From Sphaerolaimus hirsutus (Eukaryota > Nematoda > Chromadorea > Monhysterida > Sphaerolaimidae), in NCBI GenBank assembly GCA_964036195.1, contig OZ038452.1, forward strand, positions 27,787,785-27,851,784: DNA of 64,000 bases. The letters are read 5' to 3'. Made by a program: the position numbers and the translations under genes. Below, piece after piece: positions 2,698 through 58,148 of the stretch (the stretch's first letter is position 1; every line of letters begins with the position of its first letter). Under the pieces are notes generated by a model that saw nothing but the letters and a program-made list of their open reading frames with translations, ran no database searches and was not told the origin of the DNA.

Positions 2698-4646
2698 TAG
2701 GGTGTTAAAAAAATTTTTTTACGGAAAACGGAAAACGGAAAGGTAAAATTTTTTCACTTTGCAGAAAATGGAAAACGGAAAGGTAAAAAAAAATTTCTGC
2801 CGGAAAATGGAAAACGGAAAGGTAAAAAAATTTCACTCAGCGGAAAACGGAAAACGGAAAGGTAAAAAAAAATTGTCAGCCAGAAAACGGAAAACGGAAA
2901 AATGAAATGCCGGAAAACGGAAAACGGAAAGCAAAATTTTCACGGAAACGGAAAAAAATAAAGTGAAATTAGCATGGTAATAGACAAATTTGCAGAAGGA
3001 AAACCTGCATGCAGGTTTGCCTGTCTGGCTTTGATTGTGGTATCTGTACATTCTGCAACTATGGATCATGCCTGTAACTTCACTTGTAGTTCAAGCTTAA
3101 CTGAACCAACAAAAAATCATCAAAAAGTAGCCATAGTGGCAATAGGAAAGGAAACACTACAACAATTTCACAGTCTAGAAGCAGTGGGAATCACTGATGA
3201 CCCCTATGCTATTGATGACAACATTGCAGAGGAGATGATAATAAATAGCATAAAATTCAACGACAACAACAAACAAAACTATATTGACTGGCTGTATAAA
3301 GAGAGTATCAGTGACCTGCCCACAGGAAAAGCAGAAGCCATGGCGCGGTTTAAATCACTGATAAGAAGATTCAACAAAGATCCAAACTTATTCAAACAAT
3401 ACGGGAAAGTTTTGGACGACCAACTAGAAAAGGGAATAATTGAGATCTGTGACAACCATTCATTACCTGCCACACCAGCCAGTAATCACGCCGGGCAAAT
3501 CGACATCATGCAGAATTGTGTACGACGGGTCGGCAGGTAAGCCCAGCAAGTGCCTTTTTAGAGGACCAATTACAACACCATTAGCACTGGGCCTACTCCT
3601 GAGGTTCAGGGCAGGCAATCTAGCATTAATTGCCAATATTGAAAAGGCATTTTTGCAAATAGGATTGCATGACCAAGCTAGAGACTACACAAAATTTTTC
3701 TGGCTGAAAGATGCCTCAAAACCAGTAACTGAAAATAACTTAATAGTACTTCATTTTAAACGCATACTGTTTGGACTTGTCTGCAGCCCAGCAATTGTGG
3801 GAGCAGTCATAAAATACCATTTAAATGTGACAATAAACAACATGAATGAATATGAAGAAAATGAAGGGGAACGAAACCAGTTGGCAATGATAATAAACAA
3901 CATTTACGTTGATAACTTCATCATGAGTGTCACGAATGAAGTTGAAGCTTTAGAACTATATTACAAAGTCAAAGCTTTATTTAACCAATGTTTTATGAAC
4001 ATGAGGGAATGGCTATCAAACTCCAGATCAGTCATGAATGAAATAGCAGAAAACAACAGGAGTCCAAAGGTGAATAAAACTGTCGCAGTAATGGGCATGA
4101 AAAAAAATCACCGAACGGACATGCTGGCAATATCAACACCAAAATTGCAAATTGACAGCATCACAACACCAACCAGACAAAACTTGAATAAATGATTGGC
4201 ATCAGCATATGACCCAATTGCATTCACAGCACCTGTTTCACTGACCCTGAAATCCCAGTTGTCAATGCTGCTCCAAGAGACAAAAACAACACAATGGGAT
4301 GAGCCAATTGAAGATAAATACAGATTGGAAAAACAATGGAAAAATGCCAGAAAACTGAAAATCGAGCCAGAAAATGGAAAAATGGCCTGGTAAAACAGAA
4401 ACGGAAAGGTAAAAATTTTTCAGCCGGAAAACGGAAAAATGGGCCAGAAAAACGGAAACGGAAAGGTAAAAAAATTTCAGCTGCCGGAAAACGGAAAACG
4501 GAAAGGTAAAATTTTTTCGGCTGCCGGAAAACGGAAAACGGAAAGGTAAAAATTTTTTGGCTGCCGGAAAACGGAAAACAGAAAGGTAAAAAATTTTCCT
4601 GCGGAAAGGCGGAAACGGAAAACAGAAACGGAAATTTGACACCCTA
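2698..4646. mobile_element. CGGAAAA-array hAT-like element, 8-bp TSD, carries RT fragment
   Basis: The element starts TAGGGTGTTAAAA and ends TTTGACACCCTA. An exact 8-bp duplication GTACATAC flanks it (2690-2697 and 4647-4654). TAGGG ends with 8-bp TSDs fit the hAT superfamily. Arrays of CGGAAAA/GGAAAGGTAAAA lie at both ends (about 2720-2970 and 4390-4640). The 1.4 kb between them holds a decayed BEL/Pao pol fragment. No hAT transposase is present. Confidence 0.85.
2974..4393 (+). pseudogene. BEL/Pao-type retroelement pol fragment (decayed RT)
   Basis: Three consecutive frames together resemble the reverse-transcriptase region of BEL/Pao LTR retrotransposons. The order is an upstream segment with FHSLEAVGI, then LPHQPVITPGKS, then IVYDGSAG, FLQIGLHD, LFGLVCSP and NIYVDNFIM, and a tail with ASAYDPIAFTAP and WDEPI. 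The catalytic box normally reads YVDD but is YVDN here. The frame changes near 3440-3540 and a stop codon separates the pieces at 4193-4195. No LTRs, protease or integrase are seen. The fragment lies entirely inside the CGGAAAA element and is non-functional. A shorter relative lies inside 52590-53770. Confidence 0.8.
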
Positions 4647-4846
4647 GTACATACCCATGTATAAAGACAAAATTAGCGATTAAGTAGGTCAAAGTTTTGA
4701 AAATAAAGCAAATTTGAGCAGTTTTGGGCAAAAAAGGGGCAAGCGAGCAGGCGCGGGCTTGCCTGTCTAATCAAATCTCGAATTGCCAGACATGCCCGTC
4801 ATGTCCTCCCTCTCAGGGATAATCTGCCCAATTAAATCTGGGGCCA

Positions 4847-6050
4847 GGGGTTCATAATCAGGGTTTTAGTAATGTGGTGTCAAAATGGAGTGCATATTTG
4901 AAATCACTACAATCAAAAAGCCACAAATGCATCATTTCACAATTTCTAATTAATTAGCCCCAGGGGTTCAATTTAAGGCTTACAGTAATGTAGAGTTGAA
5001 ATTGAGTTATTTCAAATCAGTGCAATTAGAAACCCGCAAAATGCATCATTCATAATTTGAAATTTTTAGGTCTTGGGGTTCAATTTCAGGGTTTTAGTAA
5101 TGTAGTGTCAAAATGGAGTGCATATTTGAAATCACTACAATCAGAAACCCACAAATGCATCATTTTATGATTTGAAAGTTTTTGGCCCAGGGGGTTCATT
5201 TTTAGGGTTATGGTAATGTAGTGTCAAAATGAAGTGCATATTTCAAATGAGTGCAATCAGAAACCTGAAAATGCATCATTTCTCAAATTGAAAGTATTTG
5301 GCCCCATGGGTTCATTTTTAGGGTTATGGTAATGTAGTGTCAAAATGGAGTGCATATATCAAATCAGTGCAATCAGAAACCCAAATTTGAAATCAGTGCA
5401 ATCAGAAACCCAAAAATGAATGATTTCACAAATTGAAAGTTTTTGGCTCCAGGGGTTCATTATCAGGGTTATGGTTATGTAGTTTTCAGGGTTATGTAGT
5501 GTCAAATGGAGTGCATATTTCAAATCAGTGCAATCAGAAACCCACATTGCATCATTTCACAATTTCTAATTTTTAAGCCCTGGGCATTATACTTAAAGGT
5601 TATGGTAATGTTGAGTCAAAATGGAGTGCATATATCAAATTAGTGCAATTAGAAACCCACAAATGCATCATTACACTATTTAAAAATTTTGGCACAAATG
5701 GTTCAGTTTCAGGGTTACAGTAATGTAGTGTCAGAGTGGAGTGCATATTTGAAATCAGTGCAATCAGAAACCCAAAAATGCATCATTTCACAAATTGAAA
5801 GTTTTTGGCCCCAGTGGTTCATTTTCAGGGTTATGGTAATGTAGTGTCAAAATGGAGTGCATTAAATATCAAATCAGTGCAATTAGAAACCCACAATGCA
5901 TCATTTCACAATTTGAAAGTTTTTGGCCCCAGGGGTTCAATTTCAGGGTTATGGTAATGTACTGTCAGAATGGAATGCAGATTTCAAATCATTGTAATCA
6001 GTAACCCACAAATGCATCATATCACAATTTATATTTTTTAGCCCCAGGGG
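4847..6050. repeat. Tandem satellite, roughly 110-130-bp monomer, about ten copies
   Basis: A monomer containing CCCCAGGGGTTCA, then CAGGGTTATGGTAATGTAGT, then CAAAATGGAGTGCATAT, then CAATCAGAAACCCA and AATGCATCATTTCAC is repeated head to tail with 5-20 percent visible divergence. The spacing of successive GGGGTTCA sites is irregular but mostly 110-130 bases. The array resumes for one partial unit after the insertion at 6051-6675. It has no coding capacity. Confidence 0.85.
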
Positions 6051-6675
6051 CCAGATTTAATACTCCCTACAGATTTGTAGGATAGGGCGTACGCCCGACA
6101 GATTTTTTAAAGTTTAGCCGCATCGACGCACATGCACCGAGAGCAAGGCAGTTTGTAAAATATACGAAACCATCCCTTAAGGTTGCCGATATTGCAATAT
6201 GACGTATATCACTTCAATTTTGTCCCGGAAATCACAATTTCGTCAGTTCTTGGCCGTCTGCCAATTTGTTTTCTATTTTATTTTGTCGGGCGGGTTACTC
6301 GCATAGGTCACGCTTTTGTGTAGTCAGGTGGTCACTTTTTTAGTGTTCACTGTCTGCAACCGAAACCATGAGGGCAGCGACAAGAAAGAAATGCATGCAC
6401 AAGCGTACAAAAGCGCAACTTATGCGAGTAACACGCCCGACAAAATAAAATAAAAAACAAATTGGCAGATGGCCAAGAAATAACGAAATCGTAATTTCCG
6501 AGCCAAAATCGAAGCGATATACGTCATATTGCAATATCGGCGACATTAAGGGATAGTTTCGTGTATTTTATGAACCACCTTGCTCTCGGTGCATGTGCGT
6601 CGATGTGGTTGAACTTGAAAAAATCTATCGGGCGTACGCCCTACCCTACAAATCTATAGGGAGTATTAAATCTGG
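6051..6675. mobile_element. Mutator-like MITE with long TIRs and 9-bp TSD
   Basis: The whole element is close to a perfect palindrome. The left end CCAGATTTAATACTCCC matches the right end GGGAGTATTAAATCTGG, and the arms extend about 300 bases each. It is flanked by CCCCAGGGG on both sides (6042-6050 and 6676-6684), which belongs to the satellite monomer it entered. Very long TIRs with a 9-bp duplication fit Mutator-like elements. No transposase is present. Confidence 0.8.
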
Positions 6676-6699
6676 CCCCAGGGGGCCTCTTTAAAGGAT

Positions 6700-7631: not shown

Positions 7632-10600
7632 ATGTCCGACGGCGGTCGGTATTCCGCGTTCGAAGCGGATTGCCTGAAATATTTGGAAAGTTTGGCCTCC
7701 GCGAAGGATTCCAGCGATGCGGCCACGTTCGTTTTAATACGATTACCTTTTTTGAGACGTGCCATTTACCCGTCGGATCTATTTTCGGATAAAATCGTCC
7801 GGTATAGTGTTGTTAACAATCTTTCGGTTTTTAGAATACCGACCCCGTCTTTTCAAATGCCAATCACGACCTCGATCCATGGAACTGAAAAATGCGAACT
7901 CTTTCCGTTAAGATCCCGAAAACCCGAGAACAATTTTGTCAACTCGTGGAAGTACTGTTTTATTTTCTTCCTTTCAGATCCCTTTCGTGGAACCACTTCG
8001 AGTGCAGTGCGACCGCAATCGCAAATTTGTACAGGCAGCCCGGCTGGGGGCGGTTTCAAACTGCCGCCAGGGCCGCAACTCAGTTGTATAAAGGTACTTT
8101 TGACATATGTTTGGCACTTTGGCACGCAAAAGTTCATTTAGACACTAGAATGCTCTTTTATCCGTAGTTCACAGAGAGAATTGCATATACTCCATGAATG
8201 AATGACTTCTAAATTTCAAAATAACCCACTTTCTTGCTAAATTTTCAAAATTCCCACTTTCTTGCTATTTATTGCAATATTGACAGAAATCGGTCAGAGA
8301 TGGAAAAAGTGCTTTTTTCAATGGCCCGCAAAAATGTCCCGACATTAGTAAATTGTGCCATTTCATCCATTGTGTAAATTGTGAAAATAATTTGTGACTT
8401 TTTTCCAACTTTATCCTTCATTATCACTATAATCAGTTTATTGCCACTTTGGGTTATTAAAATATGTACTTATGTACCTACTTAGAGCTATTTTTATCCA
8501 TTTAAAGATATTTTTCTGTTTCTATACCTTAAAAACCCCTATATATAGTAACCCAACACCCCCAGAAAATCTATCCATTGGAAGAGTGATTTCTATCTAT
8601 CTGATTCCGTGCACGGGTCCGAATCAAGATGGTAATTTGAGTGCTAGGGCTAAATAGATAGCTTGGGATAAAACCACAACCAAACCAATAAATTTTCGCC
8701 GGTGTTGTTCTAAAAAAAACACGTGGGGCCATTTGACTTATGAAAAAAGCGCTTAGCAGTAGAGGATAGATTTTTTGGACATAAATATCATTCTGTAAGT
8801 CAATGTGCTCTTTTTCTACTGAAAAAGTACGGGCCATTTCTAAACCGTAGAGAACATACAGTTCAGTGGTTATCATTTGATACTGCTTGCAGGGACGTAC
8901 GCAGGATTTTTGAGCGGGGGGGGGCGGATTGTATACGGAGCCAGGCGAACGGCCAACCATGGCAGTGTTGGCGTTGGCGCTGGCGCCAAGATATACTATA
9001 TACTATATTTAGACCTTTATATAGTACTAAGACCATGGTTGGCCCTTTTGAAATGCTGTTTAGACTGCCTAAAATACATATTAAACAAGGCGGTGGGGAT
9101 TTGCGGGATTTGCAGTGCCTACAAAATCGCTTTAGAAAAGTGCCATTCCTGGCGGCCGCCCCCCCCCCCCCCCTGTGTACGTCCCTGACTGCTTGTCACG
9201 GGTCTCCAAGATTTTGGCCCTCGCGGGGGCTGGATGGATAGCAAATCGCTCCTCCCGAGGGATAGATAGCTGAAAAAAATTTCTGGGGGGGGGCTCGCCA
9301 GGGCAAAATATATAGGCATTTTCAGTGCATAGAAGGCCGAAAGGGGAAAAATCGCTAGTAATTGGTTAAAAGTGGCTAAAAGTATGTTTAAAATGGCTAA
9401 AAACAGGCATATAACCATGCATGCATAAAGCTGGAGAACACGATTTTGAAGGTGAAAAACTATAAAAAGGTGCGAAAATTAGTGATTTTGAGCGAAAATT
9501 GGGGGAAAAGTTCTCAAAAACCACTGCAGATAGATAGATAGCTGAGCGATTGGGGGGGGGGGTCTTTGGGGGTAGTAGCCAAAAATTTTGCCTCGGATAG
9601 ATAGCTGAGCGGCCTCCGGGATAGAAAGATAGCTGGCAGATTTGGGGGGGAGCCCCCCCCCCCAGCCCCCCCAGCCCCCCCAGTCCCCCCCCCCCTAGGA
9701 GGCCGCTGCGCCCCCCGCCCAACAATCCTGGCTACGTCCCTGGCTTGTAGTTTTATTTTATTATATCCTCTCAGATGTGATTGAAGTAGGTCCAATGTGA
9801 ACTTTTTTTAATCGGGGTGCTCTATAAATCTTTGTTTGCATGAATGGTCAATTATACCGGAATAGTGACTTGTTGTGAAACTACGCGATGGTGAAAATCA
9901 TAAACACTCTTGGTGTGTGGAAATCCTAGGGTAGCATGTTTTTATCCGATTTTTTTAAATCAAAAACTTCCCCTTCCAGATTACACGGATTCCTACCGCC
10001 GTGGATTTGAATATGGCGTTAGCGCGGGGCGTCAAAGATATTTGAAAGAAATGTTGGGTTTTTTGAAGTCTGGCAAAGCCAAGGGACACTACGTGAGGAG
10101 GGAGGAGCTTATTGCATTTTTGGCCGGATGCCAAGCGCCCAACAAAGAGCACAGAGGCAGCAGAGGTTTGTTTGATCCGTGTTAATATTGCAGTGTGAAC
10201 TGAAAAATTTGGTTCTGTGTCGAGAAGCTCTTTGGTTCCGCACTGCTGGAATGATATCTTTTGTCATTTTCGGACTAAGAAGCCAACTTCCACGAAAAGC
10301 TCGTAAGACTTTTGATTAAAAAATTTGATGTTAAAAAAAACATTTTGGACGTCATGTTTTTTTAAAAAAAAACTTTTTTTTTTATAAATAAAAAACGTTT
10401 TAAAAAAAACATCGGCCAACCCTAGTTGCGTCAAAAATCCGTCAAAAAGAGTTCAAAATCGCCATTTTTTGACATTGATGTACTTATGTGTATCTTTGAC
10501 CATTTTACCAATTTTCAGGTATTTTAAATTTATTGTCTTAAGTATTTACTTTCATAAATGTTCTACCAGCTTCACCCACCGCAAAACCCCCAATCGCCCA

Positions 10601-12877
10601 ATCCCTTATTTAGAGTGACAAGTTATCTTATAATTGCTAATGTCAAGTAAAATTGTAAATGAAAGCTTGTCACCTGTATGTTAACTTATCGTTTGGCCCA
10701 CCAGTAATAACTTACCTCGCTGGTTGCCTCTTATCTTGTCAGCTTGCCGAATTGGCACCTAATGACGCCACTCTTACCCCCCAGGGGTTTAGTAGGGGGT
10801 TTACCCCCCCCCAAATCCGCCAGCTATCTATCTATTCCGGAGGCCCGCGCAGCTATCTATCTATCCCGGAGGCAAAATTTTGGGCTACTATCCCCTAACC
10901 CCACCCCCCAAAATCGGCCAGCTATCTATCCATCTGGAGCGATTTTAAAGAAATTTTGTCCCGATTTTCGCACTTAATCGCTAATTTTCGTACCTTTTTA
11001 TAGTTTTTCACCTTCAAAATTCTAATTCATGTTCCGTATTGCCTATTTTCGGGTATTTTTTGTACTATCCCGATATACCTATTTAATGTACTACTATTTT
11101 ATGTACCTATATACCTGTTTTTAGCTGTTTTTATCCTACTTTTAGCGATTTTTTTCCCTTTTCTTCCTTCTATACCTCGGAAAAGCCTATATATTGAACC
11201 CCCGCGAACCCCCCCGCCCAAATTTTTTTCACCTATCTATCTCTCCGGAGGAGCGATTTACTATCTATATGAACCGCCGCGGGGGTCCAAATCTACAAAA
11301 CCCCTACCCCCCCCCGCTTTTCAGGCGTCACCGACCGGCCCCCATCGTGTATTCGAAGTCCGTCGACGCATCGCAGCCATAATCAACAGTTGAATCGGTC
11401 GCCTGGCGCTGGCGCCATTTCCCATGGCGCGCCGGATGGCGCTGGCGCCAATGAGAGTGAATCTACTTTTGTCATGTTTCACGAGGCGCTTAAAGGTTCG
11501 TTCGGTATGTATTTTGGGTTTAGTGTTTCTAGATTATGCGTTCTTCGGGTTTTAGGCAGACTGGGGGTCGGTCCCACGCTCTGTCAAGTGCGGGTGTTTT
11601 AAAATAGATGTTTAAATGTTAAATAATCTCAGGATTTTTGAGCGGTGGGGGTTGCTTGTTTACGTAGCCTGGCGAGCCCTCCTACAATTTTGCCTACACA
11701 GTGACGAATGGCGTCATTGGCCCCACCTACGCTAGTTGACACCGACATCAAATGTCAACTGCTTCCGTTCCTAATCCAAAGATTGCGTTTGAACGTCGTT
11801 CGTCCACTCGTCAGCAAGCTTTGAATCGGGATCGGCACCAGTTGACATTTGGTGTCGATGTCAACTAGCGTGTGTGTGCCCATTGGCGCTGGCGCCAGTG
11901 CCAGAAACCACTGTAGATGTATGTAGATACACGCGCTTGCGCCAAATTTTTTGAACAAAACTTGAAAAACGTATAGGAAAAGTGCCGCCCCCCCTGGATA
12001 CGTCCTTGATTCTAGGCACTCAGGGGTCTCCTAGGGGGGGGGCTGGGGGGGGGCTGCCCCCCCCCAAATCGGCCAGCTATCTATCTATCCCGGAGGCCGC
12101 TCAGCTATCTATCTATCCCGAGGCAAAATTTTTGGCTACTACCCCCAAAGACCCCCCCCAAATCGCTCAGCTATCTATCTATCTGGAGTGGTTTTTGAGA
12201 AATTTTGCCCCAATTTTCGCTCAAAATCACCAATTTTCGCACCTTTTTATAGTTTTTCACTTTCAAAATCGTGCTTTCCGGCTATATACATGGTTATATA
12301 CCTATTTTTAGCCATTTTATACCTACTTTTGGCTACTTTTAACTGATTCTTAGCGATTTTTTCCCCTTTCTGCCTTCTTAACCTTGAAAAAGCCTATATA
12401 TTGTGCCCCCGCCAGCCCCCCCCCAGCCCCCCCCCAGAAAAATTTTTCAGCTATCTATCCCTCCGGAGGAGCGATTTGCTATCTATCCAGCCCCCGCGAG
12501 GGCCAAAAATCCTGGAGACCCCTGTAGGCACTGCGTATGTCCGGACCGGGAAGGGGGGTGGCCCCCCCCCCTCCTGCGTACGTCCTTCCCTGAGACCCCC
12601 AAATCGCTCAAAATTCGCTCCATGTGATAATTTAGAGTGTTAAGCGATTTCTAAATACTTTATGCGCAATTTTCATTCTAAAATCGCGTGAAATTTCTTT
12701 TTTCGTTTTCTAGACTCTACCAGCGCGCGGCAGTGGGCCCGCAGTCACCCCGAGGGGGATTTGAGCACTTTTTTGCTGGAAGAACTGAAATTGAATAGGA
12801 AAAGGAAACGCAATTTGCCCGTCTGTTTGGGGGGGGGGTGTTGTTTCTTTCTTCATTTACCTACAGTGGCTTTTTGA
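7632..12877 (+). CDS. HAPSTR1: HAPSTR1-family protein (C16orf72/UPF0472), five exons
   Basis: Proposed exons are 7632-7801, 7978-8093, 9980-10165, 11325-11504 and 12714-12877, with GT/AG boundaries and compatible phases (2, 1, 1, 1). Exon 2 carries two short repeats, NHFECSATAIANLYRQ and GRFQTAARAATQLYK. Exon 3 has SYRRGFEYGVSAGRQRYLKE and a VRREELIAFLAG box. These are the hallmark of HAPSTR1, known as a HUWE1-associated stress-response regulator. Exon 1 YSAFEADCLKYLES aligns with the family N-terminus. Exon 4 ends TFVMFHEALKG and exon 5 holds DLSTFLLEELKLNRKRKR, a likely nuclear-localisation patch like the family C-terminus. A run of ten G in exon 5 encodes GGG just before the stop and could hide a length error. 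The donor at 11496 is an alternative to 11505. The internal exons are the most certain. Confidence 0.85.
8530..8670. mobile_element. Fragment of CTATC-type hAT MITE
   Basis: The phrases CCCCCAGAAAATCTATCC and AAATAGATAGCTTGGG resemble the distal part of the element at 12021-12524. It is truncated and lies in HAPSTR1 intron 2. Confidence 0.45.
8890..9187. mobile_element. hAT-like MITE, CAGGGACGTA ends, 8-bp TSD
   Basis: The left end CAGGGACGTACGCAGG and right end TGTGTACGTCCCTG are inverted copies. The exact 8-bp sequence ACTGCTTG flanks both sides (8882-8889 and 9188-9195). G-rich and C-rich runs lie just inside the ends and the centre contains TGGCGCTGGCGCCA. The 298-bp element has no coding capacity and sits in HAPSTR1 intron 2. 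Confidence 0.88.
9197..9745. mobile_element. Reverse-oriented CTATC-type hAT MITE, possibly chimeric
   Basis: It reads as the complement of 12021-12524. From left to right it has GGGTCTCCAAG, the GGATAGCAAATCGCTCC block, the ATAGATAGCTGAGCG blocks and long G/C runs. The right end (GGCTACGTCCCTG) belongs to the other CAGGGACGTA family, so the copy looks recombinant or inserted into such an element. A TSD could not be assigned. It is in HAPSTR1 intron 2. Confidence 0.65.
10300..10425. mobile_element. Right-hand remnant of poly-A/T TAGGG element
   Basis: Runs of T and A separated by CGTTTT end with ACATCGGCCAACCCTA, identical to the right end of the element at 27460-28144. No matching left end is found, so it is truncated. 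It is in HAPSTR1 intron 3. Confidence 0.6.
10770..11322. mobile_element. CTATC-type hAT MITE ending at HAPSTR1 exon 4
   Basis: It starts CAGGGGTTTAG and carries the CAGCTATCTATCTATYCCGG blocks and the AGCCTATATATTG block seen in 12021-12524. It ends near the CTACAAAACCCC run. Its C-rich right end merges into the run CCCCCCCCCGCTTTTCAG just before exon 4 at 11325, so the MITE appears to supply the polypyrimidine tract. The terminal repeats are diverged and no TSD was found. Confidence 0.65.
11631..12597. mobile_element. Composite hAT-like element hosting a nested MITE
   Basis: The left part CAGGATTTTTGAGCGGTGG matches the interior start of the 8890-9187 element, and the right part ends GCGTACGTCCTTCCCTG. 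Inside are a GTTGACACCGACATC palindrome (about 11730-11875), the GCGCTTGCGC hairpin (11933-11942) and the complete nested element 12021-12524. The extreme left terminus is missing. It is in HAPSTR1 intron 4. Confidence 0.55.
12021..12524. mobile_element. CTATC-type hAT MITE, complete, 8-bp TSD
   Basis: The ends CAGGGGTCTCC and GGAGACCCCTG are exact inverted repeats, flanked by an exact duplication TAGGCACT (12013-12020 and 12525-12532). The interior has repeated CAGCTATCTATCTATC blocks, C-rich tracts and an AAGCCTATATATTG phrase. It is the best-preserved of at least eight relatives in the window (9197, 10770, 16274, 37770, 46635, 51977 and others). It has no coding capacity. Confidence 0.9.
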
Positions 12878-12888: not shown

Positions 12889-13360
12889 TAGGGTGTCAAC
12901 AAAAACTTTTTTGCGGACAACGGAAACGGAAAAATTTTTGAACTTGGCGGGAAACGGAAATGGAAATTGAAAAGTTTTTGCACCTACCGGAAAACGGAAA
13001 AATGAAAAGCCGGAAAACGGAGACGGAAAAATTTGTTAAAATTCTGCCGTAAACGGAAAAAAATAAGCCGAAATTTTGCGGGCAATGGAAAAAAGTCACA
13101 TTCGCAAGAAAGAAGAAGAAATTCGCAGAATTGAGAACCTGCATGCATGTTTACCAGTGTGGCTGAAACAGAAAATTGAGCTGGAAAATGAAAAAGAGTT
13201 GGAAAAACAGACAATTTTGCTGGAAAACGAAAGAAGGCGGAAAAAACTGAAAATTTAGCCGGAAAACGGAAAATGAGCCGGAAAAACGGAAACGGGAAAG
13301 AATTTAGCAGCCGGGAAACGGAAAAAAATTGCCTGCGGAAAACGGAAAGTTGACACCCTA
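12889..13360. mobile_element. CGGAAAA-array hAT-like element in HAPSTR1 3' region
   Basis: It begins TAGGGTGTCAAC and ends GTTGACACCCTA, with an exact 8-bp duplication ATCGTGGC (12881-12888 and 13361-13368). Arrays of CGGAAAACGGAAA on both sides surround an AACCTGCATGCATGTTTACC core, which also appears in the copies at 2698 and 52590. It starts 11 bp after the HAPSTR1 stop codon, so it should be within the 3' UTR or replace it. Confidence 0.88.
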
Positions 13361-15268: not shown

Positions 15269-15701
15269 CTGGGGCAGTCTCGCACTCTGTGAAGTGACAA
15301 ATGTAAAATGTCAACTAAACAACAATATGACTTTATTACGGAACTTTATTTCGCATGACAATTTTTACGGCATTTTACGCTTTGAATGGTACGGGACAGA
15401 CAGGTGTATTTATTTGAATTTTTATATTTGTCATTATTCGAATGCATAAATTCCCAAGCTATCCATGTGCACATGCAAAACGATTTGCTGTGTAATTATT
15501 TACATTGCGTTGCCCCTGGTACATTTGATGCTACTTCACAGTTCTCTGGAAACATTCTAGTAGTTTGTTGCACGTTTTTCATTTGATCTGAGTATACACG
15601 AATCTAAAAATCTGCGCTGAATACCATAAATGGACGATTATAGCATATTTTTGTGTTGGATGAATAACAAGCAAGTGATAATTTGTGAAATCACTAATCT
15701 A

Positions 15702-15947
15702 CCGTATTTCCTCGAAATACCCCCAGGGGGTTTATTTTTTCAGAGTGGAAATTTTGAGAGAAAAACGTGAAAAATGCAACAATAACCACCATTTATAAGT
15801 TTTTACAGCCTTATATAAGGATGTAGATGGTATAAACGATGTTCTAACGTAACACAGTAAGTGTTTTGAACGTCTGTTATGCATTCCCCGGACCACAAAT
15901 ACATAGTGCCCATTTTGAGGGGGGGGGGGTATTTCGAGGAAATACGG
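15702..15947. mobile_element. CCGTATT-type MITE, intact, TA TSD
   Basis: Perfect ends CCGTATTTCCTCGAAATACC and GGTATTTCGAGGAAATACGG are flanked by TA on both sides. The interior is almost the exact reverse complement of the copy at 19374-19613, so the two are recent siblings in opposite orientation. Confidence 0.88.
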
Positions 15948-16097
15948 TAGGCATGCAAAATAGTTGTGATGTAAACGCGCAGCGCCCAGAAAGATATTTC
16001 CTACACCAGGTGCCAATTCCATTTTTTTGCAAATGAACTTCGTTAATTGACCCATTTCACCACATTCTATTCCATGATTTCGCGCATACTCATTGTG

Positions 16098-44411: not shown

Positions 44412-44880
44412 CAGTTGTCCCCGGGTTAACGGTTCCCCCGGTTATAGGGTTCCCCGGGTTAATGGGTGGAATTTTGAAAACCGGGGACACGTGTGAAGAA
44501 AATTCCCTGGATTGAAGGTTTCCCCGTATTCCCGGGTTATCGGGTGGGATTTGGGAATTTTTTACCATTTTTATATATAAAATTCCTTCAGTTATCGGGT
44601 ATTCAAGTATAATATAAAACGGGGAATAACATTCGGAATAAAACTGTGCTGTCCGCAGAGTATAAATTTACATATGAACATCATAAATGCACATTTTGAA
44701 CGTTGCACGATTATTGCATATAAAAAGCCTCATGTTCATTATTAGTGATGTGCATAAATGTTGGTACACCATGCGCCAGCACCACAACACTTCTATAGTA
44801 CATTCCCCAGTTATTGGGTTCCCCGCATTTTAGGGTGAGATTTCAAAAATTTACGTCACCCGATAACCCGGGGATGACTG
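44412..44880. mobile_element. Tigger/pogo-like MITE, CAGTTGTCCCC ends, TA TSD
   Basis: CAGTTGTCCCCGGGTTAACG and CGATAACCCGGGGATGACTG are inverted ends flanked by TA. Repeated CCCGGGTTAT/GGTTCCCCG units lie near both ends. The termini and TA site match the pogo/Tigger branch of Tc1/mariner. Confidence 0.8.
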
Positions 44881-44903
44881 TATAGGTATTCTAATTTGCC
44901 ACT

Positions 44904-45207
44904 CACAGCAAAAAATGCGCTGGTGATCTGCCGTGATCTGTGGTGAAGTGCCTTCACGCAGACGCTCGCAGGCACTTCAACGCACTTCACGAATTTCTGA
45001 TTTTTTATTTCTGTAAACAATTTAGTAATAAAATTCGTGAAGTGTCGGTGAAGTGCATTCCATCGGTGATCAGGCGTGATCAGGGTCTGAAGTGTGATCA
45101 CGGGCCGTGAAGTGCCTGGTGATCAGGCGTGATCAGGCTCTGAAGTGTGATCACAAGGGGCACTTCAGACCACTTCAGTGCACTTCACGGGCACATTATT
45201 TGCTGTG
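44904..45207. mobile_element. CACTA-like MITE, CACAGCAAAWAATG ends, 3-bp TSD
   Basis: CACAGCAAAAAATGCGC and GGCACATTATTTGCTGTG are inverted ends with ACT on both sides (44901-44903 and 45208-45210). The interior repeats GTGAAGTGC/GTGATCAGGCG. CACAG termini with a 3-bp duplication fit CMC/EnSpm, but a 3-bp match is weak on its own. Confidence 0.6.
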
Positions 45208-46634
45208 ACTGGTTTTTGCCCAAATAAACAGGTAAAAACTGTGGGTCAAAATGAAACCTGCAAAAACTATGTTACACCATTCTTGGGGCCTCAGCAGCCA
45301 TGGCATGACACTATCCAAAATAACCAAACCATTAAGCGCAATTGCTAAAACTGGAACTGATTACTAAGAATCATTGAAACATATTTCTGCTAGGTTTGCA
45401 GTGCAATGCCTCCAGCAGTTATTACCCAAGTAAATATGTTGAGTAACACAGTGGGTCAATCTGAATCCACCAAAAATATGTTTCAGTATTTTTGGAGGAT
45501 TCAGCCACCATGGTGTGATTGTATCCCACAACCAATGGAGCTATTTTTTATATCACAGTTCAATGGTCATGCGTTTTGCTTGAGCAAGATGATTTTTTTT
45601 TAAATGCTGCATGTGTATTTGCACTTAGTTATACACCTTGTGATAGATACACCACACCATGCTGTATTTTTGTTCAATTACATACCAGATGATTTATTAC
45701 CTGATATCCGAGAATTCTATTACCCGATACCTGACAATTTTATCACCCGATACCCGAGATTTTGACCTGAAAACCCGACCCGATACCCGATCTCAATACC
45801 CGAACCCGAACCCGATACCCGCAAAAATTTTGGAACCGCTACCCGATACCCGATACCCGACCCGAAATTTTTAGGACCCGATACCCGAACCCGAAAATTT
45901 TGAAATTTCCAACCCTACCCCTGCGTAATTGTTCCATCCAATTGCCAGTGATATGCCATCAAAAAAAGTTGTTCACTGCCCAATTAATGATACCTATTTA
46001 ATGGTATAAGGCCATGTGTATACATTTAAAATGCATTTATAGTTTGTCTGAGCACACTGAGCATTGTTTACACTTGTTATTGGATACTTTATGCTCAATT
46101 GATTGGGTGTGCATAGTGTTTCTGAAGCATTTTCTTATATTTACTATTCCAGTGAAAAAAGTTCTGATAAAAACCAGTATTATCAAATAAACATTTGCAG
46201 TTTTCAATGGCAATTCATTACTTGGCCCTGAAGTTATTCAAAAATACTGCCGACATAATTACCTCAACATTTTTGCTAATTTTCGCCCAGCCAGTTAGCA
46301 CCAATCTATCAGTAATGTTGCAGTATGAAAAAAGCAACAACCTCATTCCAGTCATTGTCAAGTGTATCGTTGCACCCACACTAATTTTTGGTGTGTGAGA
46401 CTTTCTTTTTTGGTATATTTAAATATTTACCTGTGAGGTATGGCTGTCTGTAATGCAAACTCAGTAGTGAAGAGGTACTTATCATTAAATGAACAGAAGA
46501 ATATGAATAATTATGGTTGAACTGACCTAAAAAGGGCACTTTCAAAATGCATTTCATGGCCCCCATGTTTGATGATTTTAGGGGCTGTACTTGAAAATAT
46601 TGAACCGTGCAAATGGTGACACAGTTGCAAGCAG

Positions 46635-49401: not shown

Positions 49402-50884
49402 CGTAAATGAGGCATCTAGTTCCGAATGTCGGTAAAGACCAAAGTGTAAAAAAATGAGTTAAGTGCGGATCTGTGATAAGTGCACTTATTTCTTCATGAT
49501 AGCAAAAGAATTTAATCAATATCTTATACCGTTCCCGAGATATATATATGCCGATTTTTAGAAAAAAACAAAAAAAATCATCTGAAACAGGGTATCTCCA
49601 CCCTCAAATTGGAAAAAATTCACTCGAAACTAGGGTTCAAACGGGATCCCGATCCCGATCCCGGATCCCGTGAAATTCCGGGATTTACCAGTCCCGATCC
49701 CGATCCCGATCCCGAAACCCCAATCCCGATCCCGATCCCGATCCCGAAATCTCAAAAATACCAATCCCGATCCCGATCCCGATCCCGAAAGTTTTCAAAT
49801 CCCGATCCCGATCCCGAGAAACTCCCAAGTCCGGGATCCCGATCCCGGAAAAATTAGTGGAAATTATAAAAAGTGAAATAATGACGCTTTTGCATTCAAA
49901 AAAGTGGATGCAAACCCCCAGCGTCAATTTTATGCCACTTTTCTGGCATCCAACAGTGTTTTGAGACCTTTATGATCAACTGTGAATGCCAGAAAAATGG
50001 CCAAAATATCTATCCCTAGAACCCAATCCCGATCCCGGAAAAATGCCTATCCCAATCCCGATCCCGTGACCCCAATCCCGGCCAATCCCGATCCCGATCC
50101 CGATCCCGAAATCTCAAAAAACCAATCCCGATCCCGATCCCGATCCCGAAACCGCAATCCCGATCCCGATCCCGATCCCGAAATCTCAAAAAGTGAATCC
50201 CGATCCCGATCCCGATCCCGAAAAGTCAATCCCGTTTGAACCCTACTCGAAACAGGGTATCTCCAAAAAGAGCCACCAAAAATTTCACTCGAAACAGGGT
50301 ATCTCCACCAACGGAAAAAATCATCCGAATTACGGTATAGATTTGACGCAAACAGTCCAAATTCCCATACAAAACAGAAAAAATCATCCGAATTACGGTA
50401 TAGAATTCCAAACCAGTTTTTGAAAAAAATCATCCGAAACAGGGTATCTCCAAAAAAATCTTTGTCGGAAACAGGGTATCTCCAAAAAGTCTTTGTCCGA
50501 AACAGGGTATCTCCACTGCTCTGGGTAAGAAATTTGCTCTCAAGTGGGGCCATGGGCCAGCAGAACGGCAGCACAACCGGGCCTGTTGATCCCATGGACT
50601 AAGTGGAGATACCCTGTTTCGAGTGATTTTTTTGAAAAAAATCACTCGAAACAGGGTATCTCCACTGAATCTGCTGACCTGCTGTCAATCAAATCATCAT
50701 AACTCTAGCTATATACGCCGGCCGCAGGGTTTAAAATATGGAAAATGTAGACAATTCCATAAGCTTTTCAAAAAGTCTTGGGCAAGACTTGTCACTTTAA
50801 AGTTGCACGCCCGGGCCAACTTTGAATTTTCAAATGCAATTTTGGAAAAACCTAAAATGATGGAGATACCGACATTCGGAACTA
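49402..50884. mobile_element. Palindromic element with TAGTTCCGAATGTCGGTA arms and CGAAACAGGGTATCTCC array
   Basis: TAGTTCCGAATGTCGGTA near 49419 mirrors TACCGACATTCGGAACTA ending at 50884. Units of CGAAACAGGGTATCTCCA repeat at 49580 and 50246-50665, some inverted. It is interrupted by a GGGATC element at 49631 and bounded on the right by a CCGTATT MITE, beyond which the palindrome seems to continue (GATGCCTCA against TGAGGCATC). Confidence 0.55.
49631..50245. mobile_element. GGGATC-array hAT-like element, 8-bp TSD
   Basis: The ends are TAGGGTTCAAACGGGAT and ATCCCGTTTGAACCCTA. The exact TSD is CTCGAAAC (49623-49630 and 50246-50253). The CCCGAT arrays are long and regular, implying a young copy, and flank the shared core (TTTTCTGGCATCCAACAGTG). 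Confidence 0.92.
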
Positions 50885-52589: not shown

Positions 52590-53770
52590 TAGGGTGTCAA
52601 TAATTTTTTTTACAGAAAACGGAAAATGGAAAGGGTAAAATTTGAAAGCTGCCAGAAAACGGAAAAATTAAAAAAATTAATCGGCTGGAAAACGGAAAAA
52701 TGAAACACCGGAAAACGGAAAGCGAAATATGCACGGAAACGGAAAAAAATTTGCTAGAATTTTAAAAAATTAACATGAAACACCTGCATGCAGGTTTGCC
52801 TGTTTAGCTATGATTGTGGTAGCTGTATAGTTTTGAATTTGTGATTGCACCAGTGGACCTTTACTTGTACTGAGCTTCTGAACTGAACCAGCAAAAATCA
52901 TTACAAAAGGATCAAAGCAACAACAATACTCTTCATTTAGCAAAATGGTTCTGTGATGTAACATAACAGTAAACAGTATAAGAGTACACTCAGCAGACTG
53001 CAATGTATGCAACCAAAATGTCAGGGCTGAGTTGGATACAAGTGATGTTTCATGGAGATGGTATCATTATGGAGCATTTTCTTCTGAAAGGTGCATGGCA
53101 TGCAGTCTGCAGAGTATATAAAACAATATAGTGCCACATAGTGCCACAAAATATCACTGCATCAAAATCAAATTTTGTAACAATAATCAGTTCGAGGCAA
53201 CAGTTGATGCAACATACCGTATTACCTCGAATTAACCCCCCCTTGAATTAACCCCCCCCTCGAAATACCCCCCCTAAATTTCGGCTGAGGAAATAATAAA
53301 CCCCCCCCCTCGAAATACCCCCCCTAAAATTGAGTGTAACGTGAACGTACATGACAAATACCGCAGTTCGTGATTTGTACAATGCAGAAAACACGTTAAA
53401 ACTGATGATTAAGTGACGTTAGGGAAGGGTTTATGTGTAAATACAGTTTGATATGCCTTCAAACACATACAAATCTATGTAATTGTTCGATTTTTCTACG
53501 TCTGCATATGGGGAATTTCCGAAAATTTCTGGCGAAATAATAAACCCCCTGGGGGTATTTCGAGGTAATACGGTAATCAACTCCTCAGCTGTTTCAGCCT
53601 TCAAATTGCTACAAAGAAAGTGGGACTTAAAAAACCAGTGGAAAAAGATAAAATACAGAGCAGAAAAATAATGGGAAGATGTCAGAAAAGTGAAAATCTA
53701 GCCAGACAACGGAATAATGGCCTGGAAAAAAATAAATGGATCTAGCCGGAAAACGGAAAAAAATGGTCCA
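52590..53770. mobile_element. Second RT-bearing CGGAAAA element, right end lost
   Basis: It starts TAGGGTGTCAATAA, right after GGTGCTGC, with CGGAAAA arrays. Its core repeats landmarks of 2698-4646 in the same order. These are CCTGCATGCAGGTTTGCCTG, then CTGAACCAGCAAAAATCAT, then a tail at 53595-53730 with AAAAACCAGTGGAAAAAG and CGGAATAATGGCCTGG. The RT centre is deleted and a CCGTATT MITE sits inside. No CCCTA end or matching octamer is found; a GCGCC array begins at 53776. Confidence 0.65.
53217..53573. mobile_element. CCGTATTACC-type MITE, TA TSD
   Basis: CCGTATTACCTCGAATTAAC and GGTATTTCGAGGTAATACGG are inverted ends flanked by TA. The interior is close to the copy at 59268-59689. Confidence 0.85.
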
Positions 53771-53775
53771 GGGGC

Positions 53776-54000
53776 TAGTGATGTAAAAGCGCCATGGCGC
53801 TGGCGCCTGGCGCTAGCGCCAAACCAAAAAGCGCCATGGCGCTTTTGGCGCTTGGCGCCTTTTTGCCGTGGCGCTATTGGCGCTTGGCGCCGAGACCTCC
53901 AAAAGCGCCATGGCGCTTTTGGCGCTTGGCGCTAGAAAGCCGTGGCGCCATTGGCGCTTGGCGCTCACACTTTAAAAAGCGCCAAAAAAGCGCCATAACG
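53776..54000. repeat. GCGCCATGGCGCTTTTGGCGC array, left
   Basis: It begins TAGTGATGTAAAAGCGCC and continues with 30-40-base units of GCGCCATGGCGCTTTTGGCG and GCGCTTGGCGC. The start is the inverted copy of the end of the array at 58395-58618. The high GC content gives spurious Ala/Leu/Trp/Arg-rich frames. Confidence 0.75.
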
Positions 54001-56095
54001 TCTGCGTACGTTTTCGATAGGTAGCATCAAATATGCCATCAAAAAATGAAATGATTGTTGTTTTTGTTCATTCCAATTTTTCCATCACCTAACAGTTGTC
54101 ATGAATCCGTGTATTCAGCTGTTTTTCGACTACACGATTCACGAGGTTTTTTACCGCACTTTTCCCTCTATTCCCACTTCACCGGCCGCTCGCAGCTGCA
54201 GTGCACTGCACTGGGCCCGGAGGTCCAGGTTATAAATGCGTGTTGTAAATTTTAAGGAAACATGTCCGAAGACGGTAGGTTTTTCAGAACGTGCGATGAA
54301 CCACTCGGTGGCTCACGCTGTTCCGTTTCCCGCAGCACGCACAGCACTTACAGTCAGCATAAGCAGCGCGGCAATTAGAGCAGTTGTTAATTAGCTAACT
54401 AAGGGAAAACAGTTAGTACTTAGTGCTAATACAAAAAAAAGGGGTCCGAGTTGGGTTGAGAAGAGAGTTTATTTTTAGGGCGATGGAAGAACAGTAGCGG
54501 CAGAGTAGAAGCAAAATCAGTTTTCGTCGCATCGACAAAGTTGGGGGGAAAAAACAATTTCAGCTACTTATAAGGTAATCAAGGCTACCATAATCGACGT
54601 GAATAAAAAGCTAAAAAAAAACATAAAACGGCAAGGTTACAAAATCACTTCCAAATCACATAAGCTCTGATGTAAGCACTTAGTAAAATCGTACGTAACA
54701 CAGCTGCTTATGAAAAGAGTACTAATTAATATCAGCTAACAACGGTAATTAAAAGCTTCATGCGACATGGGGCTTAATCTATAATTTACAAGTTTACTTG
54801 GGGCGGCAATTATTTACTTCCATAATTACCTACAAATCCCTACTTAATCTAATGCGATTAAAAAAAGATAACAATGCAGTGCAATGCATATTCATCAAAA
54901 TGGAACGAACAACGTATGTACAAAGGCAATCACGACATCAAAATCTAATACAGCAATTTAAGCTAACCAGTAATTAGACAGCTAATACAAGCTTACAACT
55001 AATGTTAATTAATTAAGATACAAAACAATTAATTAAGCTCGTGGGAATGAAAGGCATTGGCGAGAAACGATATGTACAACAATTTCTACATGTCACATGG
55101 AAACTTTGTTTGGGGGTTTTGTATTCATAAGTTACGTTAGCTAGAAAGTGCTCGCGGGCGCGAAATGCTTATCACCTCCAACCCCGCGACCCACTATTGT
55201 GACTATCCGGTCAGCTAGCGCCCGTGAGAAAGGTTTCAGCCCGATGGCCACACCCTTCCAAGCGCGGGGAGATATTTATGCTAGGGCGGCGGAAAAGTAT
55301 TTTTTGGACTGCGACTTGTCACTTGGGGCGTTATCAGAAGCTGTTCCTACCACCCACTGATACTAGATGACGCACGACAATCTAGTCAACATGGGGAGGA
55401 ACACGGAACAGTGTTTTTGTATTTTTTGAGTGAAATTCATTGTTCCTGGCTTCCGGTCGCCACCTACCTATCAGCCGTCAGTCTCCGCCTCTGCCCAAAG
55501 ATAAGTAAAGGGTAGAATGTGCTTTAGACCGCCCAGAGAGTCACAACAGTGTGCCGGCGAGCCCAAAGGCGGCCACACGCCACGCCGCGGCATTTCAAAG
55601 TGAAAAATGTGAAATTCCCCTCTCACCTTATGCCATGTGGAATGCAGTTACACCTAAGCTAGACATAACCTAGCCAACTTGACTTAAATAGATTTGGCGC
55701 ACAAAAATAGTAATTAAAATTGGGGGGTAAGGGAACGAAATTGTGCAGAGCACTACAACCACTAGAAAACATGGCGAACTCGGTCAGCCCATGTAGCGGC
55801 GTCGATCTTGCGATGCAGTGCTCTGACGGGGTACTGCGCAGCCCACTGCAGGGCTGTGCATGCCGTGCAGTCCCCGTTGCCGTCGAAAAGCCGTCGCAAT
55901 GTCTGAGAAAGTTTGCCCAAATTTAGTTTACAAAATACATAGTAGTTTACGTTCCGTGAATTATTATTGCATTTGTTTGTCTAAAATTTTGTGGGGTGGT
56001 GTTTTTCCCCTCGTAAAAACGCTCTTACACAATTATGGTACACACAGACAAATTTCATTGATTGGTGTATAAATGGCAAAATTTCACTTGCTTTA
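54001..56095. other. MITE-poor island, possible promoter or exon, unidentified
   Basis: Over 2 kb without recognisable MITEs, GC-richer at 54180-54370 and 55440-55920. At 54262 an ATG (MSEDG) runs straight into a GTAGGT donor, with TTATAAATG about 30 bases upstream. This could be a tiny first coding exon. A frame ending at 54255 (LYSHFTGRSQLQCTALGPEV) follows a CAG acceptor-like site. Frames at 55148-55360 and 55720-55926 are open but unrecognised. None can be promoted to a gene from sequence alone. It is flanked by the paired GCGCC arrays. Confidence 0.3.
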
Positions 56096-56100
56096 AAATA

Positions 56101-56547
56101 CCGTATTTCCTCGAAATACCCCCCCCCCCCTTGAAATACCCCCCCCCCTCGTTTGACCCCCCCTCTTGAGACCACTATGAAACAATCACCCCCCCCTCGA
56201 AATACCCCCCCCCCAAATTGAGTGTAAAGAGAACGTACATGACAAATACGGCAGTTTATGTTCTGCGTAGTGCAGAACACACGTTAAAACAATGTCGGAA
56301 TCACGTTAGAACAGTGTTTATACCATCTACATACTAATATTAGTCTACAGAACCTTATAAATGGCAGTTTTTGTTGCATTTTTTGACGTCTGCGTACGTT
56401 TCAGACGACAATTTCGTACTTGGTTTTCAAAAATTTTCTTGTGAAATAATAACCCCCCCCTCGAAATACCCCCCCCTCGTTTAACCCCCCCCTCTCGGGA
56501 TCACTATGAAACAATCACCCCCCGGGGGGTATTTCGAGGAAATACGG
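56101..56547. mobile_element. CCGTATT-type MITE, TA TSD
   Basis: CCGTATTTCCTCGAAATACC and GGTATTTCGAGGAAATACGG are flanked by TA. Long C runs near the left and repeated CCCCCCTCGAAATACCCCC blocks lie inside. Confidence 0.85.
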
Positions 56548-56719
56548 TAGTCACCTACTGAAACTATCTGCATTTAGAGTAAAACTACCTATACAGCACG
56601 CGGAATGTACACTTTACAATCTACCTATCCATCATATCACATTTATTTTTATGACATTCATTTTACGATGCTTATCAGATCTGAGTAAAAAACGTGCTTC
56701 ATCACATTACTTTTTATTT

Positions 56720-56825
56720 ACCGTATGTCTTTAAATATGATCCCTTGAATAAACCCCCTGAATAACTCCCCCTGTTGGCCAGGTGAGGAAAAGTACCCCC
56801 TTGAATAACTCCCCCATCTGGGTAT
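56720..56825. mobile_element. Fragment of ACTCGAATAA-type MITE
   Basis: ACCGTATGTCTTTAAATATG, CTTGAATAAACCCCCTG and CTTGAATAACTCCCCCA are a decayed left half of the superfamily. Confidence 0.45.
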
Positions 56826-56917
56826 TTGATATGTATTTACCTATATCCACAATGTGTAAATTGAATGCCAATGAAGTCAAATTTTTGAATGGATACCTTG
56901 TTTTTGTTGTTGCTGAA

Positions 56918-58148
56918 CAGGGTTGGTTTTATAAAAATTCATTTGAGTAAAATTGTATAAAAATTTTATAAAAATTTTATTTTATTTTTATTTTATTCTT
57001 GTTTCATTTTATTTTATTTTATTTTATTCCCAAAAGTCATCAATAAAATAAAATGACACATTTTACAAAAATTTTACAAAAATTGTACAATTTTTTTACA
57101 AAAAATCAAAATCATGCATGCAAGGCCAGGAAAAATGTTATAATTAGAATTTTACAAAAATTGTACAATTTTTTTACAAAAAATCAAAATCATGCATGCA
57201 AGGCCAGGAAAAATGTTATAATTAGACCTATACATGAAACACCTGTGGCAAATTTTTCCCTTACTTTTCAAAAGTTGCATGCAGTAGGTATTGTTAGCTA
57301 GCTGCAAGTGTAAAGTTACAATTATTGTCAGTAGGACTGGAGTGTGCTGGGCACATTTGTAAAATGTCATGCAAAGTGTCAACTGTCATGCAAAATATCA
57401 AGTGTCATGCAAAATATCAAGTGTCATGTCAAATTTCAAGCAAAGTGGCAATTGTCATGACAAATGTCATGCAAAGTGTAAATTGTGTATCTGTATCTTC
57501 TGTTTTTGTATCCATGGTGTGTTTTGTATCCACATCTTATGTTTTTGTATCCAAATCTTATGTTTTTGTATCCAAATGTTCACATAAGATTTGGATTCAA
57601 CAACAATATAATTTGGATGCAAAACATAACATTTAGAAATAAAACTTGGATTTGGAAACTAAGAAAACTAAGAAAAAAAGATTAGGATACAATTTGCTTG
57701 ACAATTGACAATTTAGTTTATATTTCTCATGCCAATTGACAGTTTACTTAAAATTTGTCATGACAATTGACAATTTAGTTTATATTTGTCATGCCAAATG
57801 ACAGTTTACTTAACATTTGTCATGACAATTGACACTTTGCATGACATTTTACTTGACATCTGACACTTTACAAACTTTGGGACTGTCCCCAGATTCATGA
57901 ATAAACAGGTAGAGACTAGAGACTCAAGCAATGAGATACAATTTTACAAAAAATATGAATTTTTATACAATTTTACAAAAATATGAATTTTTATACAATT
58001 TTACAAAAATTTTAACAAAATTCAAACTTTTATACAATTTTTATTTTTATTCTTAAATTTTCCATTTTATTTTATTTTATTTTATTCTTAAATTTTCCAT
58101 TTTATTTTTATTTTATTTTTATTTTTCTCCGAGATTTTGCCAACCCTG
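56918..58148. mobile_element. TTTTATT-array CAGGG hAT-like element
   Basis: It starts CAGGGTTGGTTTTATAAAAA and ends TTTTGCCAACCCTG. The flanking octamers TTGCTGAA (56910-56917) and TTGTTGAA (58149-58156) differ by one base. TTTTATTTTATTTTAT arrays and TTTTACAAAAATTG units lie at both ends. A segment of about 85 bases with AATCATGCATGCAAGGCC is duplicated in tandem near 57070-57225. A TGTCATGCAAAG palindrome is nested inside. Confidence 0.8.
57335..57895. mobile_element. TGTCATGCAAAGTGTCAA palindromic element nested in 56918-58148
   Basis: ATTTGTAAAATGTCATGCAA units on the left mirror GCATGACATTTTACTTGACA units on the right, over roughly 560 bases. The centre has four ATCTTATGTTTTTGTATCC units. 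The ends resemble the palindrome at 47090. Confidence 0.6.

Follow-up and report, generated by a model that had tools for sequence, protein, structure and literature searches.

We analysed a 64,000-nucleotide stretch of the genome of the nematode Sphaerolaimus hirsutus (GenBank assembly GCA_964036195.1, contig OZ038452.1, positions 27,787,785 to 27,851,784 of the forward strand; hereafter the window), in which simple-sequence arrays of several unrelated motifs lie between similar ends. A first-pass annotation of the window had read these arrays as satellite DNA packaged in a single hAT-like terminal type. We conclude that the window very probably samples about a dozen hAT groups that coexist in one genome, mostly as short non-autonomous elements, and that the arrays are the families' own subterminal repeats, acting as putative sites for a BED zinc finger. 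Each family's array consists of many copies of one 6–7-bp word near the ends, and the BED finger of its transposase would bind this word, so that the ends are recognized and paired. Because transposase-bound subterminal repeats are established for hATs, this accounts for many arrays under an apparently single terminal type, and because a short terminal inverted repeat (TIR) with a T/CA tip is general in hATs, the ends look alike. Arrays of simple sequence that look like satellites in a genome annotation can instead be the ends of transposons.

Target-site duplications and empty sites

Pairing 173 left ends ([TC]AG[GA]G) with 163 right ends (C[CT]CT[AG]) at a spacing of 60–6,000 bp, we found an exact 8-bp target-site duplication (TSD) at 14 end pairs in the window and a duplication with one mismatch at 2 more. 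The 14 include all 12 exact duplications listed by the first-pass annotation (2698, 12889, 20509, 21178, 26468, 27460, 32090, 33375, 33718, 38795, 43368 and 49631) and add two, at 8890 and 12021; its three near-exact ones (16892, 42942 and 56918) have one mismatch each, those at 42942 and 56918 being the 2 from this pairing. The same pairing gave no pairs at duplication lengths of 6, 7, 9 or 10 bp and 5 pairs at 5 bp, and shifting the right flank to nine alternative registers also gave none. We enlarged the set to 331,131 bp by adding loci L009–L047, which were picked around hits, so that the set does not have the status of a random sample; exact duplications flanked 72 TIR pairs at 8 bp and 14, 2, 1 and 0 pairs at 6, 7, 9 and 10 bp. 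The T/CA tip was part of the search rule; in the enlarged set, agreement of the TIRs at 9 or more of 12 bases was tested.

Empty sites also point to insertion with an 8-bp duplication. When the two flanks are joined and 8 bp, one copy of the duplication, are removed, 17 of 84 elements match elsewhere in the sequence examined, ungapped and at 80% identity or more, compared with 1, 2, 1, 0 and 0 of 84 when 7, 9, 0, 4 and 12 bp are removed. The 17 comprise six A elements, four H elements and one each from B, F, I, J, K, L and M. One such comparison is internal to the window: the F element at 33718–34813 lies inside the B element at 33375, and the unbroken family B copy at 49631 has a single GATCCCGG at the corresponding site (49799–49869; 97% over 71 bp). 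A false pair spanning two copies (L031:2213–7130) was excluded from this test and from the word table described below, and was kept in the family I position count. The 8-bp TSD, short TIRs with a T/CA tip, subterminal repeats and, in families A, C, I and J, remnants of the C-terminal dimerization domain of hAT transposases between the same kind of ends together uphold the earlier assignment to hATs.

Subterminal words follow TIR families

The ends fall into about a dozen TIR groups (A to N), among which B/C and K/L were separated by the sequence after the TIR; the family rules were written post hoc, once the elements had been inspected. Little beyond the first five bases is common to all ends, and the continuations are group-specific (TGTCAA, TTCAAACG, TTGGAAAA, TTGGGA, CTCGAA and TTGGTTTTA). 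In ten families a clear family-specific word is repeated near both ends. These words, with their average number per element over the terminal 2 × 250 bp and the number of elements counted, are CGGAAA in A (27.8; 12 elements), ATCCCG in B (32.5; 11), ATATCG in C (36.2; 5), ACCCGA with AACCGA in E (18.2 and 5.0; 4), CGAGTC in F (18.0; 2), TTTTAT in G (23.0; 2), TTCGAA in I (13.7; 7), AACGTA with variants in J (6.8; 9), GCGCCA in K (27.2; 5) and GGCACC in L (18.5; 4). The resulting word-by-family table is mostly diagonal, with most off-diagonal counts near zero; ATATCG is absent from B ends and ATCCCG from C ends over the same terminal 2 × 250 bp. Subterminal repeats occur at both ends in A, B, C, E, F, G, I, K, L and 6 of the 9 J elements, and are weaker in D, M and N. 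Family A also contains AAACGG, at up to 22 copies per 2 × 200 bp.

The words are concentrated next to the ends. Counted in elements of 800 bp or longer, with group H omitted, 271 of 275 words in A lie within 250 bp of an end, as do 52 of 55 in E (ACCCGA), all 23 in F, all 97 in K and all 74 in L (GGCACC). For family I the figure is 109 of 122, the other 13 coming from the false pairing. The long A, E, F, K and L elements have interiors of 0.4–1.9 kb with few or no words, and interiors in general vary, holding transposase remnants, a piece of a retroelement or nothing recognizable. Within the window, 28 of the 37 clusters of at least four words lie in recognized elements, and 7 of the 9 outside are at or across ends of the same families: A at 52590 (counted for two words), B at 26468, a C-like one at 36878, K at 53776 and 58618, and J3 at 62381. 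The C-like ATATCG array (36878–36992) differs in its first ten bases (TAGGGTTGGGACGATATGACTT), and no partner end was found for it; it is possibly a TIR variant or a chimera. The other two of the 9 are GCGCCA clusters at 11404–11450 and 11884–11944, where we found no element end.

Inverted copies, arranged like the TIRs, are the simple expectation for words at the two ends of an element; one direction is seen instead. Across families A, B, C, E, F, G and J, to which the test was applied, both arrays lie on the same strand in 43 elements and on opposite strands in none, with 2 undecided. Because copies share ancestry, we take families as the honest count, and all 7 of the 7 families tested, whose words are non-palindromic, are same-strand (sign test, 0.016). 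The words of group N are mixed in direction at one end. A common word direction may mark the identity of an end; in Hermes, BED sites are described as arranged differently at left and right ends (PMC10368747).

Transposase lineages and a full-length J element

In a scan of the 348-Mb genome, the hAT dimerization profile PF05699 found 28 places at E ≤ 0.001, of which we examined 24 (all but C712, C219, C15:25296907 and C9:15783913). Twenty lie in TSD-flanked A, C, I or J elements (5 with one TSD mismatch), those at L024, L027 and L033 are placed in such elements by ends or arrays only, and that at L039 has no assigned family. In a tree of 26 rows (25 different), which omits L033 (stops), the weak L040, L042, L044 and L046 and one of two identical-looking L031 copies, each of the four families occupies one side of a branch, with support of 96/92 for A (9 rows), 96/92 for C (4 rows), 100/100 for I (5 rows) and 84/88 for J (4 rows). 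The transposase remnants in A, C, I and J thus belong to four separate lineages, and on this tree we reject, for these four, a single transposase family behind all ends. An A-type fragment compared with PDB chains matches the Hermes transposase (E 1.4e-8) and has no match in the protein database, and neither a BED finger nor an RNase-H core was found in A, C or I. The zf-BED profile finds 8 places in the genome, six of them, above the cut-off, clustered at C1:7466186–7488779, one at C1:7679975 and one on C6; the cluster perhaps represents host genes derived from hATs.

One J element (C3:40743–46748; 6,006 bp), with CCTTGGCG on both sides as its TSD, contains a multi-exon hAT gene on the minus strand. 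The BED finger of this gene is split by one intron (donor GTGAGT, acceptor CAG), and when spliced it scores 25.5 bits as a 50-residue piece and 22.2 bits over 133 residues, against a cut-off of 20.6. The gene also has the dimerization domain, and hAT-core motifs can be read by eye; its RNase-H core exons gave no hAT match in Pfam (seven exon pieces) or PDB. In a protein search whose scoring covered the 7,993 candidates with the most words in common, the exon pieces, once assembled, match six database proteins of hAT type (best E 1.9e-20, 23% identity), five of which cover the dimerization domain and more and one of which is named in its source as a BED-domain protein. The word of this element differs from those of subfamilies J1, J3 and J4. 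Judged from its sequence, and with no claim of activity, the element appears to hold a full-length BED-finger hAT gene.

Sister families differ word by word

Some sister subfamilies have kept TIR and spacers, yet an identical change of one or two bases sets all their words apart. Subfamilies J1, J3 and J4 have TIR, spacers and word positions in common. At the right end each has seven words, of AACGTA type in J1, AGTGTA type in J3 (window position 62381 and L026) and AGCGTA type in J4, with no cross-occurrence, and at the left end J3 and J4 differ in the same way in 7 of 7 words. In a comparison of one J1 with one J4 copy, word position 2 (A/G) is changed in all 13 comparable words, other word sites in 1 of 70 and spacer sites in 88 of 294. 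This comparison, for which word lists were typed in from the alignment, uses 7 of the 9 right-hand J4 words, the other two lying beyond the conserved part, which the spacer count includes.

The same states recur through the genome, in scans controlled with the reversed pattern. The J left end, with the dinucleotides left free in three words, occurs at 3,735 places (control, 0); among the first 100 places listed, counted by hand, 40 have AC in all three words, 25 GC, 22 GT and 13 a mixture, and 6 of these 13 combine words of two or three subfamilies. The two-word B/C pattern occurs at 5,993 places (control, 0), and the first 100 listed, also hand-counted, comprise 62 GG/GG, 29 AT/AT and 9 with a single deviating letter, with no GG/AT hybrids. 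The words of B and C differ while their TIR is shared, and their spacers are less alignable than those of J. Families K and L have TAGTGATG(G/T)AAA in common, and the pattern used to search for them has 2,014 places in the genome and 1 in the control. A search for a third B/C word state with the TIR TAGGGTTCAAACGY found 162 places, compared with 4 for the reversed pattern; with the next base alone listed, it showed no further type. Concordance among copies follows from shared masters, and the evidence for concerted change lies across the words within a master.

We infer that the unit-by-unit change between sisters records a changed transposase specificity. A broader account, on which we are evenly balanced between acceptance and doubt, is that the word acts as a private address that splits hAT families within one genome: in a master element, the finger and every copy of the word would shift together while the TIR (and, in J, the spacers) is kept. 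The process would have repeated (AACGTA, AGCGTA and AGTGTA in J; ATCCCG and ATATCG in B/C; GCGCCA and GGCACC in K/L; ACCCGA and AACCGA in E), some of the new addresses would have founded families of hundreds to thousands of copies, and the shared word direction would distinguish left from right. To our knowledge it is an open question in protein–DNA coevolution how a transposase can adopt a new binding word, given that a dozen or more sites have to change as well, and an exact-term search of the open-access literature found no concerted word change between hAT sister families. This genome holds sister word states in thousands of copies together with conserved J spacers and a full-length J gene with a BED finger, and the presence of the sister states and the J gene in one genome makes the question testable.

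Alternative explanations

Several results weigh against family-specific subterminal repeats bound by hAT transposases. Some words occur off the diagonal (GCGCCA at 11.0 in L, GGCACC at 3.0 in K, and CGGAAA at 2.6 in K and 2.0 in F), the overlap between L and K arising because the TIR rule fails to split the two. No clear word was found in the 14 CAGGG-type elements of group H or in 3 of the 9 J elements (L020:8179, L027:2261 and window position 23349), and in elements of 800 bp or longer the B and C arrays are less confined, with 103 of 158 words in B and 66 of 86 in C no more than 250 bp from an end. Of the 55 B words farther in, 53 fall in L010 and the window element at 26468, and those of C fall in L025; all three have internal tandem duplications. 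Families B, D, E, F, G, K, L and M, which were filed by TSD, TIR and array, yielded no assignable transposase remnant, and B, the commonest of those counted among them, is linked to a hAT transposase through the TIR that it shares with C. Two N elements gave weak hits only (E 0.013–0.014), and the N rows do not form one clade. Profiles for DUF659 and hAT-like RNase-H find nothing in the genome, and control genomes are equally silent. The array of the full-length J element is dense at the 5′ end of the gene (CGCGTA 10 and GCGTAC 8 in 250 bp) and sparse at the other end, and a wrong join of the J BED exons scores 12.0 bits. The proposal that one hAT terminal type is a vehicle for satellite DNA, which it captures or generates and then spreads, could draw on the array motifs themselves, which are present as the first-pass annotation named them, between ends alike over about five bases; on a pure (ATCCCG)n array at C4:2459094–2459177; and on the internal duplication of array-bearing stretches at 26468, L010 and L025. 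Yet the words track TIR families, the long A, E, F, K and L interiors are nearly or fully word-free, so that the description of the arrays as interiors is wrong for long elements, and the arrays are mostly subterminal and limited in size. In the free-array test, which covered one word, ATCCCG, runs of at least 8 pure units occur at that single C4 place in 348 Mb (14 units), against 4,007 places for the B left end (0 in the reversed control), and the longest pure run in the sequence examined in detail (the window and the fetched loci) is 5 units. We reject the proposal as scarcely credible. Its single terminal type dissolves into about five shared bases followed by group-specific sequence, and the separate lineages of A, C, I and J come close to what it had itself named as contrary evidence, namely families derived from unrelated transposases; what survives of its shared ends are the sister families B/C, J1/J3/J4 and K/L, with common ends and different words.

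The words might also be bound by a host factor, such as a chromatin or replication protein, which we consider very unlikely: most words contain CG and could be read by host proteins, but such a factor would suggest one word across families, whereas each family has its own, and the precedents of Ac, Hermes and Tgf2 favour the transposase. More weight, although we still find it improbable, attaches to a passive origin of the concerted word differences, through CpG decay in a master or through gene conversion or slippage that homogenizes the units while transposase specificity stays unchanged. Arrays in general can homogenize, copies with single decayed words occur, the 6 mixed J copies noted above join words of different subfamilies, and each J3 word has TG where J4 has CG, the kind of change that methylation typically causes. 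CpG decay could account for J3/J4, but not for J1/J4, in which the A/G change at position 2 is non-CpG and affects every comparable word against few other word sites and under a third of spacer sites; the B/C difference likewise lies outside the CpG of the word. Even for J3, 4 of 5 non-word J4 CpGs are retained in at least one copy over the alignable part (counted after the second copy had been seen), although two further J4 CpGs beyond that part are lost. Because the J words are interspersed with conserved unique spacers, slippage alone cannot explain their replacement.

Elements and other features of the window

Family A is represented on the plus strand by elements at 2698–4646 (TAGGGTGT..ACACCCTA; TSD GTACATAC on both sides; CGGAAA words near both ends) and 12889–13360 (TSD ATCGTGGC on both sides), and by one with minus-strand words at 38795–39401 (TSD ACCACAAC on both sides). 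The 1,949-bp element at 2698 holds between its arrays a reverse-transcriptase-like piece at about 3440–4195 (RVT_1, 22.7 bits, below the cut-off of 29.6). An incomplete A element on the plus strand (52590–53775) has the left end TAGGGTGTCAA and a CGGAAA array, and contains scraps of the C terminus of an A-type hAT transposase at 53147–53215 (E 2.7e-7, local set) and 53575–53613 (E 0.011).

Family B elements lie at 21178–21629 (minus strand; ends TAGGGTTCAAACGGGAT; ATCCCG words; TSD CAAGTGAT), 26468–27364 (plus; TSD GATCTGGG; a 337-bp duplication inside), 32090–32570 (plus; TSD CACTTATG), 33375–35009 (minus; TSD CGCTGAAC) and 49631–50245 (plus; TSD CTCGAAAC), each with two identical TSD copies; a decayed copy at 16892–17156, given no strand, has TSD copies CATGCGGG and CATGCGAG with one mismatch. 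The element at 33375 is split by the F element nested in it (33718–34813, plus; ends TAGAGCTCGAA; CGAGTC words; TSD GATCCCGG on both sides). In a second nest, an E element (42942–45917, plus; ends TAGGGTTGGGA; ACCCGA words; TSD with one mismatch) contains a C element (43368–44135, plus; ends TAGGGTTCAAACGATAT; ATATCG words; TSD GTTCAGTT on both sides), itself holding a plus-strand remnant of the C terminus of a C-type hAT transposase at 43679–43751 (E 4.7e-4, local set).

The remaining elements are mostly without an assigned strand. They include two D elements, at 20509–21165 (ends TAGGGTTGGAAAA; A/T runs and AAATCG) and 27460–28144 (A/T runs, with AAACGT present); a G element at 56918–58148 (ends CAGGGTTGG; TTTTAT-type array; TSD with one mismatch); an I element at 17212–17523 (ends TAACGATGGCAAA; TSD with two mismatches); and the J element without a clear word at 23349–23843 (TSD with one mismatch). 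The hAT-like elements added here are at 8890–9187 (ends CAGGGACGTA; TSD ACTGCTTG on both sides) and 12021–12524 (ends CAGGGGTCTCC; TSD TAGGCACT on both sides). Single ends are seen for J3 at 62381–62500 (plus strand; 7 AGTGTA-type words and no sister-type words) and for family K, with a left end at 53776–53995 (plus; TAGTGATGTAAAAGCGCCA; GCGCCA words) and a right end at 58416–58618 (minus). These K ends were considered as one element, 53776–58618, and the pairing was dropped, as their flanks disagree. Despite their different words, both D elements and the F element have an internal palindrome in common, GCGC(C/G)TTGCGC(C/G)AAAATTTTTG, and a stretch near 11930 resembles it.

Apart from the hATs, the window contains a gene with exons at 35435–38642 that we take to resemble PICK1. 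Two pieces of its Arfaptin-domain exons (36999–38642) exceed the cut-off, at 46.4 and 49.4 bits, and of themselves suggest an animal genome, and a PDZ piece is sub-threshold; the A element at 38795 lies just downstream. A 116-bp minisatellite in the region 4844–6050 / 6056–6670 lies beside an inverted pair of about 600 bp, with ends, read by eye, of GGGGCCAGATTTAATACTCCCTAC and its complement. A further repeat recurs at 15701–15948, 19373–19617, 20140–20500, 51241, 53225, 59276, 59588, 59762 and 61385; its ends are near TACCGTATT(A/T)CCTCGAAATACCCCC, and it has 17-bp GGGGGGTTAATTCGAGG-type arrays.

Comparison with known hAT systems

The maize element Ac has the tip C/TAGGG. The hexamer AAACGG, repeated within its terminal 200 bp, is bound by its transposase, and Ds copies are heterogeneous, having the TIR and some subterminal repeats in common and variable filler between them (PMC3260210); subterminal repeats and the 8-bp TSD are called defining features of hATs (PMC4890040). 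The elements described here resemble Ac/Ds in their TIRs and repeated terminal hexamers, and family A contains AAACGG itself, which we take as no sign of descent and at most as a likeness to Ac in the way it may work: the A fragment, compared with PDB chains, matches Hermes. Unlike in Ac/Ds, about a dozen groups coexist here; ten are marked by a clear word, and for four the transposase lineage is known.

In Hermes and Tol2/Tgf2 the BED finger binds multiple subterminal repeats, and the repeats reported here would be of the same kind. Tgf2 has 17 and 18 copies at its two ends, and the paper on it calls subterminal repeats haphazardly placed; the words here, by contrast, keep to one strand at both ends in all 7 families tested. 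In PMC8097297, BED and Hermes domains of hATs bind diverse words (CGG, GCGC and AT-rich), and the domains of four hAT proteins match their own subterminal regions; CGGAAA, GCGCCA and TTTTAT are within the word range given there for the hAT-19/CGGBP domains. That work measured proteins of many species, whereas the present analysis reads the DNA side of many families in one genome, where sister families differ unit by unit.

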